From Pseudidiomarina homiensis (lineage in GTDB: Bacteria; Pseudomonadota; Gammaproteobacteria; Enterobacterales; Alteromonadaceae): a stretch of 64,000 bases of DNA. Numbering within the stretch: position 1 is the first letter of the stretch; each line of letters opens with the position of its first letter. The notes beneath the pieces were generated by a model that saw only the letters and a list, made by a program, of their open reading frames with translations, was not told where the DNA came from and searched no databases. Shown piece by piece: positions 17,181-31,475 of the stretch. The stretch spans positions 1,054,001 through 1,118,000 of the forward strand of contig NZ_PIPX01000001.1 of the NCBI RefSeq assembly GCF_003987225.1, read 5' to 3'. The position numbers and the translations under genes were made by a program.

Positions 17181-17268
17181 GTAGCCCGTGGTTCTACCAC
17201 GGGAATTCTCGAATTCAACGACAATGGTTAAAACGTCAGGCTTGCCCCGTGGTAGAACCACGGGCTAC
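17181..17268. repeat. REP pair (BIME-like) copy 1
   Basis: An 88-bp element: GTAG followed by CCCGTGGTTCTACCACGGG, a ~42-bp linker, then the inverted CCCGTGGTAGAACCACGGG ending in CTAC. The linker is the reverse complement of that in copies 2 and 3, so this copy is in the opposite orientation. It lies between the prpE start and tRNA-Ser. The 12-mer GAACAGCGAATA follows directly and recurs beside copy 4. Confidence 0.9.
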
Positions 17269-28735: not shown

Positions 28736-29433
28736 GAGGCATTACTCGCTGCTGCTTTAGGTTGAGCGCTTTGGCGCTGTAAAATCGCCAATAACTCATC
28801 CATAAAGTTCAGGTATTGGTTATCTACTTTTTCAACTCGGTTAGCAAAACGGTTATAGGCAATAACCGCCGGAATCGCCGCAAATAAACCCATGGCTGTT
28901 GCGATCAACGCTTCGGCAATACCCGGAGCAACCATCGCAAGGGTTGCTTGCTGTACCGCGCCCAGACCAATAAAGGCGTTCATAATCCCCCACACCGTGC
29001 CAAACAGACCGACATACGGACTAATCGAACCAATAGTTGCGAGTAAACTGAGGTTGTGCTCGAGGCGATCGACTTCACGCGAGTGCACGACACGCATCGC
29101 ACGGTACGAGGCCTCTAGAACTTGTTGCTGACTTAACGCAGCATTACTACGCAAGCGTGCGAATTCTTTAAAACCTGCATAGAACAATTTTTCCATGCCA
29201 TTTGCGTTTTGCGCGCGCGCGCCAATTTCTTGATAGAGCCGAGCCAAGTCGACGCCAGACCAGAAACGATCTTCAAACGCCGTCGCTTGCTGACTTGCGG
29301 TTTGAATAATTTTCTTCCGTTGAAAGATCATCATCCAACCGAACACCGAAAAAGCAAGCAACATCAGCATGACTAACTGAACTACAAAACTCGCTTCAAG
29401 AATCAACGCAGTGATCGACATTTCAGCTTGCAC
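28732..29433 (-). CDS. tolQ: Tol-Pal system protein TolQ
   Basis: A MotA/TolQ/ExbB proton-channel protein with three TM segments: residues ~12-34, ~138-160 and ~170-192. The conserved blocks are LSLLATIGSISPYVGLFGTVWGIMNAF and GIAEALIATAMGLFAAIPAV. A GTG at 29433 is supported by AGAGG 9 bp upstream and overlaps ybgC by 11 bp; an in-frame ATG at 29421 is the alternative. It is 233 residues. Confidence 0.96.
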   Translation of the reverse strand: MQAEMSITALILEASFVVQLVMLMLLAFSVFGWMMIFQRKKIIQTASQQATAFEDRFWSGVDLARLYQEIGARAQNANGMEKLFYAGFKEFARLRSNAALSQQQVLEASYRAMRVVHSREVDRLEHNLSLLATIGSISPYVGLFGTVWGIMNAFIGLGAVQQATLAMVAPGIAEALIATAMGLFAAIPAVIAYNRFANRVEKVDNQYLNFMDELLAILQRQSAQPKAAASNAS

Positions 29434-29848
29434 GCTTAAGCACCTCTATTATTTCTGTTGGCATCGGTACCGCCCGAACGGCGTTACCGTCTTCCCCTAA
29501 ATTCACACAGGCCGCTTTGACCTGAGCCTGACATAAAACTGTGCCTTGTTGATTTAGCACTTGTTGTGTAAACACGACCGACGCGCGTTTCAACCGTTCG
29601 ACCACAACGGTTACACGCAGTTCATCGTTAAATCGTGCTGGCCGTAATAAATCCATATGGACCTGCCGAACCACAAAACCCAGCCGATGAGCTAACCACG
29701 TATCCTGTTCTATTCCCAACGAGCGTAACCATTCTGTTCTGGCGCGCTCAAGGAATTTGAGATAGTTGGCATAATATACGATACCGCCGGCATCTGTGTC
29801 TTCATAGTACACTCGGATCGGCCACGAAAATGCATTTGCTTCGACCAT
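29423..29848 (-). CDS. ybgC: Acyl-CoA thioesterase YbgC (4-hydroxybenzoyl-CoA thioesterase family)
   Basis: A small hot-dog-fold thioesterase, the first gene of the Tol-Pal operon in many Proteobacteria. RVYYEDTDAGGIVYYANYLKF contains the catalytic Asp (YEDTDAGG) and the Tyr/His-type helix, followed by FLERARTEWLRSLG. It is 141 residues. The promoter must lie in the AT-rich region upstream (29849-30110). A role in phospholipid or acyl-CoA turnover is known for the family. Confidence 0.94.
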   Translation of the reverse strand: MVEANAFSWPIRVYYEDTDAGGIVYYANYLKFLERARTEWLRSLGIEQDTWLAHRLGFVVRQVHMDLLRPARFNDELRVTVVVERLKRASVVFTQQVLNQQGTVLCQAQVKAACVNLGEDGNAVRAVPMPTEIIEVLKRAS

Positions 29849-30090
29849 ACTTGCAAGCTTTCCTCTATTTCAGTGAATGCGCAACCTTGCACCGCTCAAA
29901 GTTTATGTAAATTTTTTGCATGATTAAAAAGTAGCCAGACATTTTTTTATTTAACCGATTTTACCAAAAATCATTATGTTGTTGATTGAATTGATTATTT
30001 TTGGTCTTACCAATTTTAGTGTGTTTATTATTTATTCACACGTTACATCATGCTATTAGTTTTTCTTATGCGAAGCGCAATTTTTCTCGT
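29849..30090. other. AT-rich intergenic region upstream of ybgC
   Basis: About 240 bp without a supportable gene. It is markedly AT-rich compared with its flanks (several T6-T7 and A5 tracts) and presumably holds the tol-pal operon promoter on the minus strand. I cannot single out one convincing -35/-10 pair. Confidence 0.6.
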
Positions 30091-30118
30091 TTGAACAGAT
30101 GTCCGACCTCCGTATAAT
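30091..30118 (+). promoter_or_regulatory. Promoter of the candidate small RNA
   Basis: TTGAAC (30091-30096), a 16-bp spacer and a consensus TATAAT (30113-30118) are followed by GCGC, a GC-rich discriminator as seen at stable-RNA promoters. A Rho-independent terminator lies ~110 bp downstream on the same strand, with no open reading frame between. Confidence 0.6.
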
Positions 30119-30124
30119 GCGCTG

Positions 30125-30233
30125 CATATCAGTTACGAAGAGACCGGTTGTCACTTCTTCCTGTTATTGTTCCCTGGATTTAACTTCCTTGTTGTTCTGT
30201 AGTTTTGGCCCGCTTCCCAGCGGGCTTTTTTTT
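30125..30233 (+). ncRNA. Candidate small RNA, about 110 nt
   Basis: A consensus promoter and a strong terminator bracket ~110 nt with no ORF. The predicted RNA has a possible 5' hairpin (GAAG...CTTC near 30137-30160), then a pyrimidine-rich unstructured stretch with repeated CTTCC and TTGTT motifs. It ends in a 6-bp GC stem plus T8, the shape typical of Hfq-dependent sRNAs. I do not recognise the family. The 5' end is estimated from the -10 box. Flanking genes (ybgC and ruvB) are both on the minus strand, so the transcript is not a leader of either. Confidence 0.5.
30207..30233 (+). terminator. Rho-independent terminator of the candidate small RNA
   Basis: GCCCGC (30208-30213) and GCGGGC (30220-30225) form the stem around TTCCCA, followed by eight T residues. 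It points in the + direction only. Confidence 0.9.
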
Positions 30234-30262
30234 GTGCGTTATTCGTGCGTTCGGCATTACGG

Positions 30263-30350
30263 GTAGCCCGTGGTTCTACCACGGGTCAAACCTGACGTTT
30301 TGACCATTTTCGTTGAATTCAGCATACCCCGTGGTAGAACCACGGGCTAC
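30263..30350. repeat. REP pair (BIME-like) copy 2
   Basis: An 88-bp element with GTAG-headed palindromes at both ends facing each other, and a linker containing CAAACCTGACGTTTTGACC. It is nearly identical to copy 3. Its right-hand GTAG (minus strand) supplies the TAG stop codon of ruvB. Confidence 0.92.
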
Positions 30351-31345
30351 TTATCTAAGCCGAAGTGCGCGTAGGCGTGCGGTGTCGCAATTCGACCACG
30401 CGGCGTACGCTGCAAAAACCCCTGTTGAATCAAATACGGCTCCAATACATCTTCAATAGTATCTTTTTCTTCACCAATCGCCGCCGCAATGTTATCCAAA
30501 CCGACGGGGCCACCCATAAATTTTTCTATGATGGCCAATAACAACTTCCGATCCATATAATCAAAGCCAGCTTCGTCGACATCAACCATTTTCAGAGCGG
30601 CAGAGGCAATCGGCAAATCGATTTTGCCATTGTTGCGTACTTCGGCGAAGTCACGCACACGGCGCAACAAGCGGTTGGCAATACGAGGGGTACCACGAGA
30701 ACGTCGTGCGATCTCGCGCGCCCCGGCGTCGTCTAGATCTAAGTTTAAGTAGCTCGCTGAGCGTTGAATAATCGTCGTAAGTTCGGTCACATTATAAAAT
30801 TCAAGTCGTTGCACGATGCCAAAGCGATCACGCAGCGGCGAAGTTAACGCCCCGGCACGCGTCGTCGCACCTATGAGCGTGAACGGTGGTAAATCGAGCT
30901 TAATTGAACGTGCGGCAGGTCCTTCACCGATCATGATATCTAACTGGTAATCTTCCATCGCTGGATACAAGATCTCTTCAACCACCGGACTTAAGCGGTG
31001 GATCTCGTCAATGAACAGTACATCATGCTCTTCGAGGTTGGTCAGTAACGCCGCTAAATCGCCTGCTTTCTCGAGTACCGGCCCGGAGGTTTGGCGAATA
31101 TTAACGTTTAGCTCGTTAGCAACAATATTTGCCAGCGTCGTCTTGCCCAGTCCTGGCGGACCAAAAATCAGCAAATGATCGAGTGCCTCTTGCCGTTGCC
31201 GAGCCGCTTGAATGAAGATCTCCATCTGTTCGACCACATGCTCTTGCCCAGTATAATCGGCAAGTTTTTTGGGCCGAATTGCACGGTCGATGAGTTCGTC
31301 ATCGCCTTGGGTCTGCGGCTGGTTAATACGGTCCGGTTCAATCAT
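30347..31345 (-). CDS. ruvB: Holliday junction branch migration ATPase RuvB
   Basis: RuvB is the hexameric AAA+ motor that drives branch migration with RuvA. It has Walker [16 protein letters not shown], Walker [12 protein letters not shown], a sensor IGATTRAG and the C-terminal winged helix ending [15 protein letters not shown]. The start [11 protein letters not shown] at 31343-31345 is chosen (332 aa). The frame stays open upstream to 31462 only because it reads through a REP element. The stop codon TAG (30347-30349) lies in the GTAG end of REP copy 2. ruvA is 130 bp upstream, separated by REP copy 3. Confidence 0.96.
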
Positions 31346-31381
31346 AAGAGCCTCAAAGGTCGTTATTCGTTTCTCGTACAG

Positions 31382-31469
31382 GTACCCCGTGGTTCTACCA
31401 CGGGTCAAACCTGACGTTTTGACCATTTTCGTTGAATTCGGCATACCCCGTGGTAGAACCACGGGCTAC
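31382..31469. repeat. REP pair (BIME-like) copy 3
   Basis: An 88-bp element in the ruvA-ruvB gap, near-identical to copy 2. The left tetranucleotide is GTAC rather than GTAG. Its right end is 6 bp from the ruvA stop codon. Confidence 0.92.
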
Positions 31470-31475
31470 TTCGCT

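Follow-up and report, generated by a model that had tools for sequence, protein, structure and literature searches.

A conserved small RNA gene between ruvB and the tol-pal genes of Pseudidiomarina homiensis, with a GcvA-type site upstream of its promoter

In Pseudidiomarina homiensis, promoter and terminator signals lie between ruvB and ybgC, the first gene of ybgC-tolQRAB, which raises the question of whether an RNA is made there and, if so, under which regulator. In the window (the whole stretch of DNA analysed, 64,000 nucleotides), ybgC occupies 29423-29848 and ruvB 30347-31345, the latter with an internal ATG start chosen by eye (longest ORF 30347-31462). Both genes are on the minus strand. 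A sequence-only reading had proposed a candidate small RNA on the opposite strand to both neighbours, and the RNA does lie on the plus strand. The stretch 30125-30233 is a small RNA gene; its product is probably a base-pairing RNA of the Hfq type that is controlled by GcvA and stands in for GcvB.

The RNA gene and its conservation

The claimed promoter was located on the plus strand, with a -35 hexamer TTGAAC (30091-30096), a 16-bp spacer and a -10 hexamer TATAAT (30113-30118) followed by a GC-rich discriminator. With the 5' end placed from the -10 hexamer, the predicted transcript (30125-30233, corresponding to 1084125-1084233 in the genome) measures about 109 nt. It comprises, all on the plus strand, a 5' hairpin identified by covariation (GAAG.GAC-CGGUU-GUC.CUUC, 30137-30157), a pyrimidine-rich core that is almost invariant in the alignments (GUUCCCUGGAUUUAACUUCCUUGUUGUUCUGUA, 30169-30201) and an intrinsic terminator (30208-30233). 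The terminator consists of the stem-loop GCCCGCTTCCCAGCGGGC at 30208-30225 and a T8 run at 30226-30233, in agreement with the strong T8 terminator read earlier. The further claim that no ORF is enclosed held for conserved frames only: a 55-aa ORF (30099-30266) is the sole plus-strand ORF of at least 20 aa that spans the whole predicted RNA, its start lying 5' of the predicted transcript and its frame reading through the terminator, and a kept frame within the gene is unlikely because of indels between genera.

Matching to promoter and terminator consensus is by itself not beyond chance, as simple scans returned 5 promoter-like sites (3.3 expected) and 4 terminator-like sites (2.9 expected). 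The element is instead taken as real because it is conserved in the genomes of the genus and, with its neighbours, in other genera, and because its stems carry compensatory changes. A DNA search found the gene in all 26 Pseudidiomarina genomes and in none of 33 others, the query matching only in part in three fragmented assemblies (G001, G015, G023). The genus alignment comprised 25 loci, two partial pieces from G015 and a second, 29-base match in G007 being excluded. TATAAT, TTGAA and the loop GGTTGTC were invariant in these loci, as was the core CCTGGATTtAACTTCCTTGTTGTTCTG except for one base (with a similar picture in 23 rows), and the terminator loop and flanks were variable.

Among 13 sequences selected for clean terminator alignment, 96.9% of the cells in the 5' hairpin and terminator were paired, and both sides had changed in 5 of the 15 pairs (6 cells), as many as in none of 500 shuffles; slid controls gave 0 to 3 pairs. 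Two of the seven pairs of the 5' hairpin had changed on both sides, and its outermost pair was broken in 3 of the 13 rows. The terminator alone showed 34 double-change cells in 31 family sequences, two rows of which appeared misaligned by eye; shuffles gave 7.7, none of the 500 being as high. Further pair types showed no excess (10 versus 10.8). Conservation and covariation, both named as checks by the sequence-only reading, thus came out in favour of its candidate.

At the family level, covariance model R2 matched 197 of 295 genomes (E up to 0.01), representing 40 of 52 genera, although the weakest of these matches may be due to chance. A model of the core recovered five genomes missed by R2 (G027, G034, G061, G072 and G093), and four of the five had RuvB and TolQ beside the RNA (L096, L097, L100, L105). 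R2 gave no match in the family genomes G028, G031, G032, G062 and G064. The RNA lay between RuvB and TolQ in all 35 loci checked in other genera of the family (drawn from matches with E up to 7.7e-4), and the promoter, its upstream box (see below), core and stem were conserved across genera but the flanks were not. The homologues in Pseudoalteromonas (L062-L065) seem by eye to have a longer 5' part, with the promoter about 150 nt before the core; tblastn found TolQ and no YbgC at these loci. The exact core pattern occurred in at least 119 stretches of named genomes. The 80 matches listed include Pseudidiomarina, Idiomarina, Alteromonas, Pseudoalteromonas, Paraglaciecola, Marisediminitalea and Aestuariibacter, the rest of them being MAGs titled Idiomarinaceae, Alteromonadaceae or, twice, Gammaproteobacteria.

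At the order level, matches to the core model at E up to 0.01 came from 109 of 295 genomes. The noise floor lies near 1e-3, and matches outside the named families at E of about 1e-3 to 1e-2 are close to it; the P. homiensis genome itself gave two extra weak matches. YbgC was in reach in 15 of 20 loci outside the family (the best and some weak matches), at 0.4-1.1 kb together with ruvB and/or tolQ in family f20, at about 2.6 kb in f15 and at 0.8-2.7 kb in f6. These three further families carry diverged copies of the RNA near ybgC. Among the five loci without YbgC, L128 possessed the sequence and the box with no YbgC within 3 kb, and the other four (L120, L125, L126, L127) look like chance matches, lack the neighbours and are not among the 16 loci in which the box was scored. 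At the class level and a threshold of 0.001, matches came from 7 of 229 genomes, of which two belong to the family itself. The strongest of the other class matches (L129, E 6e-7) begins by eye at a stop codon, lacks a box of up to 2 mismatches over 300 nt and was rejected; L130-L133 likewise had no box within 2 mismatches, L130 lying near a contig end, which leaves the stretch searched uncertain. Separately, clustered matches to the RNA model were observed in genus g76 (G252:C12:455229-482776, 7 per genome; G288:C13:3871-6513, 5 per genome).

The locus also carries a 95-nt element with 23-nt inverted repeats (CCCGTGGTTCTACCACGGG arms), one copy of which lies directly 3' of the small RNA terminator (30258-30352) and another just upstream of ruvB (31377-31471), with a further pair of arms at 17185-17264. 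The arms occurred 13 times in 360 kb of the same genome, including the six of the window, and twice in another 400 kb, and the element looks like a REP or MITE-like repeat. Matches to mir-140 (30258-30355) fall on this element and were discarded.

Hfq and candidate targets

All 11 genomes searched for hfq encoded it, including that of P. homiensis. Targets were scanned over 296 orthologous starts, taken as trios from three species, and the best predicted target was a gene of the DUF1329 family (PF07044; G000:C1:437989-439344, L329), whose leader AGAACAA(A)CAAGGA contains the ribosome-binding site. This leader site is complementary to a candidate seed within the core, the invariant UUCCUUGUUGUUCU (30185-30198, plus strand). 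The leader keeps AACAAGGA in 26 of 26 genus genomes and the longer site in 24, as AGAACAA(A)CAAGGA in 22 and as AGAATAACAAGGA, a T variant that still pairs by G-U, in two; the rest of the leader differs between clades. In Idiomarina, AGAACAACAAGGA was kept in 14 of 15 genomes (L426 differs), weaker variants of the site occurred in six genomes of genus g35, and the site was absent in Alteromonas and Pseudoalteromonas (8 of 8). By eye, the DUF1329 gene of the latter two genera seems to follow another frame closely, and that of P. homiensis lies two genes from an RND/MMPL-like transporter. The A-rich leader could instead be kept for ribosome or Hfq binding.

The scan as a whole gave no excess over 13 control RNAs, with 19 trios below -3.5 compared to 12-22 in the controls, and the best sum (-9.72) fell within the range of the control RNAs (-5.8 to -10.4), one of which was lower and one nearly equal. 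Other promising targets were an NSS symporter, an SSF (PutP-like) symporter and an mmsA-like aldehyde dehydrogenase (assigned by Pfam, other names by eye), and mmsB-like and phhA-like genes also ranked high with control RNAs. As the scan performed no better than its controls, the amino-acid theme among the top targets is a lead only; most of the amino-acid genes near the top owe their names to inspection by eye, and shuffled RNAs also placed some of them high. A search of 8 genomes with the antisense pattern AACAACAAGGAAGT, allowing one mismatch, was set aside: besides its 8 matches at the RNA gene there were 11 elsewhere, the same number as with the reversed control (11). The earlier suggestion that the pyrimidine-rich stretch pairs with purine-rich ribosome-binding sites therefore gains a conserved example in DUF1329, but no overall excess of targets.

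A GcvA-type site and its regulator

Two elements upstream of the promoter do not figure in the sequence-only reading. The dyad ATTAG-TTTTT-CTTAT (30055-30069, plus strand), a GcvA-type box of the LysR T-N11-A form with one mismatch, is centred about -63 from the predicted start. Some 21 bp downstream of it, a conserved AT-rich element, CAATTTTTCTCG (30078-30089, plus strand; centre about -42), adjoins the -35 hexamer; it is possibly a second GcvA half-site, degenerate at most, and/or an UP element. GC-rich discriminators and AT-rich upstream elements resemble those of growth-rate-controlled promoters, and such features may add a second input to the RNA.

The GcvA motif ATTAG-n5-CTAAT occurs at -65 and -43 of gcvB, the first site being the more conserved in a phylogenetic footprint (PMC5002191), and a GcvA site has the form T-N11-A with CTAAT (PMC3658693). 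In the gcvB promoter of Escherichia coli K-12, ATTAGTTTTTTTAAT is centred at -65, 22 nt before TTGAG, taken as the -35. In the printed sequences of the present RNA, the -35 TTG follows the box by 21-23 nt (counted by eye), and by 21 nt in the window. Among the matches listed, 81 of the 114 loci scored had ATTAG-N5-CTAAT with 0-1 mismatch in front of the RNA. With the half-sites reversed the figure was 5 of 114, and in the adjoining stretch further upstream it was 1 of 112; the 114 came from 119 fetched loci, five having too little upstream sequence. In families f6, f15 and f20, the box had at most one mismatch in 14 of 16 loci and two mismatches in the other two (reversed half-sites, 1 of 16). 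Overall, the box upstream of the RNA is conserved in four families.

The bare pattern ATTAG-N5-CTAAT was not enriched in eight genomes of the genus (1-3 per genome compared to 2-7 for the reversed control), and perfect boxes with an all-A/T centre occurred only at the RNA gene, in five of the eight. A search for perfect ATTAGTTTTTCTAAT in the 26 genus genomes gave six matches, five of them at the small RNA. The sixth (L264, G019:C9:11885-11899) lies, by eye, upstream of cytochrome c-like and nitrite-reductase-like genes. A second perfect dyad, ATTAGAGATGCTAAT, was seen in G000 (L316, C1:1659830-1659844) and G010 (L320, C1:1374098-1374112), in identical, non-coding, promoter-like sequence before a gene, and from its sequence could be another GcvA target.

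The gene for GcvA itself was found over the curated cut-off in 38 of 39 genomes, the exception being 60% complete. In P. homiensis it lies apart from the small RNA (G000:C1:738660-739556), and the two genes were more than 100 kb apart or on different contigs in the genomes whose coordinates were compared. A box with at most one mismatch was present within 130 nt upstream of gcvA in 19 of 30 loci (0 of 30 in each of two controls), seven of the 30 coming from genomes without an RNA match (G028, G039, G042, G054, G062, G064, G088). As the two genes are far apart, the box at gcvA is separate evidence for its being a GcvA site. The three loci examined in Pseudidiomarina and Idiomarina (L293-L295) have no box at gcvA, so that there the link to GcvA comes solely from the RNA promoter. 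By eye, gcvA closely follows other coding sequence at L293-L295, unlike at most other loci.

Of 68 genomes, 7 had a GcvB match that reached the gathering score; none of the 41 from the family did, five of these giving sub-threshold matches of 27-31 bits (cut-off 42). None of the seven GcvB-positive genomes had a core-model match at E up to 0.01, an exclusion that could reflect a single event on the tree. In G048, which possesses the small RNA, the GcvB model scored 38.2 bits at a place away from gcvA, short of the cut-off of 42. It is an even proposition that in Alteromonadaceae and the three related families GcvA has a different partner RNA, in that GcvB is missing and the RNA holds its promoter type and its place in the amino-acid circuit, the hub small RNA having been replaced or rebuilt beyond recognition and the transcription factor site kept.

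These observations bear also on the possibility that the RNA is a strongly diverged and relocated GcvB orthologue rather than an unrelated RNA with a GcvB type of promoter. The same box and box-to--35 spacing, a G/U-rich stretch that could read CA-rich leaders and the lack of any genome with both RNAs over threshold speak for such descent, which is nevertheless unlikely given that the GcvB model found no match at E up to 10 in the 512 bases of 29849-30360, nor any in the P. homiensis genome, and that the two RNAs differ in length (about 109 versus 206 nt) and in their neighbours. It is improbable that a conserved Hfq small RNA is here controlled by another LysR-type regulator reading ATTAG-N5-CTAAT-like sites, with a function unrelated to that of GcvB. 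T-N11-A dyads are common to LysR regulators, LysR genes are numerous in the genome, where the GcvA model gives 15 matches (G000), and the gcvA loci of Pseudidiomarina and Idiomarina have no box; on the other side, the sequence, spacing and distance from the start are those of the published GcvA motif, and the same box stands at gcvA in the 19 loci noted above.

Because the promoter is preceded by a gcvB-type arrangement of GcvA sites, GcvA most likely activates the RNA. That GcvA binds there is an inference, as are association with Hfq, repression and a part in the uptake of amino acids or nutrients; everything that follows the promoter step is deduced from anatomy. Activated GcvA (in E. coli gcvB, with glycine present) would occupy the dyad, possibly along with a weaker site next to the -35, and thereby start the RNA. 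The transcript would fold into the 5' hairpin, an open pyrimidine core and the terminator with U8, and the terminator hairpin and U8 tail would stabilise it. With Hfq, the single-stranded core (UUCCCUGGAUUU, UUCCUUGUUGUUCU) would pair with purine-rich ribosome-binding sites and so keep the mRNAs from being translated, a mode of action that GcvB achieves with another sequence and from another locus.

The bacteria that carry the RNA are abundant in the sea, and some of them feed mainly on amino acids and peptides. The RNA offers a handle on amino-acid control in Alteromonas and Pseudoalteromonas, and with the control site of GcvB found on an RNA that looks unrelated to it, one can test whether regulators retain their RNA partners or exchange them. 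The family could also enter RNA libraries.

Relation to known small RNAs

No Rfam family reached its cut-off over the gene, the window otherwise containing three tRNAs elsewhere, and 14 loci, 13 of them with homologues, likewise gave no Rfam match. With its own promoter and terminator, no kept ORF and conservation across the family, the gene remains an unassigned small RNA, as first proposed, and the earlier failure to match it to a known family was reproduced at the gathering scores. RprA, mmgR (suhB) and anti-hemB gave sub-threshold matches only, and ArcZ and SdsR none at E up to 10. A CsrB/RsmY-type RNA, with several GGA motifs in loops, was rejected, 30125-30233 having one GGA.

Homology to the rpoS-linked small RNAs RprA, ArcZ or SdsR is very improbable. 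A weak match extends over the whole length of RprA (30.3 bits, E 0.13), and the motif UUCCCUGG is also present in ArcZ and SdsR; the RprA gathering score is however 70, the other loci gave no RprA match either, and the promoter box differs. A functionless look-alike of a promoter and terminator, or a terminator of ybgC or ruvB only, is refuted by the conservation of the element across genera, with flanks that are not conserved, and by both neighbours pointing the other way, even though simple scans find such sites near chance level.

No small RNA was described together with ruvB, tolQ and ybgC in the literature searched, and the open text on Idiomarina, Pseudoalteromonas, Shewanella, Alteromonas, Aeromonas and GcvB does not describe this RNA. 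In transcriptome papers on Alteromonas and Shewanella, the main text has no mention of tol-pal or ruv (PMC5864184) and none of tolQ, ybgC or motY (PMC5471319). PMC5864184 counts 127 chromosomal RNAs, of which this RNA may be one, and it may already have been seen in RNA-seq without a name; its GcvA-type control is new here.

Among known systems, the RNA shares its bacterial family with the CsrB-like Aln1a-c of Alteromonas, which derive from a 404-bp region and carry CsrA-binding motifs (PMC5864184), and with the CsrB-like Pf1-3 of Pseudoalteromonas, which bind CsrA (PMC11882849). It resembles RprA (RF00034) in length and in its 3' end (UGUAGU..GCCC-stem-GGGC-U8), from which its score of 30.3 bits against 70 sets it apart. 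In contrast to GcvB (RF00022), the RNA measures about 109 rather than 206 nt, lies at the ruvB-tol locus and neither next to nor divergent from gcvA, and its targets look different. As in GcvB, it has its own promoter and terminator, hfq is present, and an unpaired pyrimidine or G/U-rich stretch is fit for ribosome-binding sites. CUUGUUGUU is present as a possible counterpart of the G/U-rich R1 seed of GcvB, which pairs with leaders of amino-acid transporter genes; the target scan was overall at the level of its control RNAs. The encoded hfq and the intrinsic terminator with T8 are features suggestive of an Hfq-type small RNA. Measured against the gcvB promoter, with its dyads near -65 and -43, the sequence has a first putative site centred about -63 with one mismatch and, at the second position, a predicted half-site at most; the GcvA-type box ATTAG-N5-CTAAT near -65, 21-23 nt before the -35, is thus the promoter feature that the two RNAs have in common.
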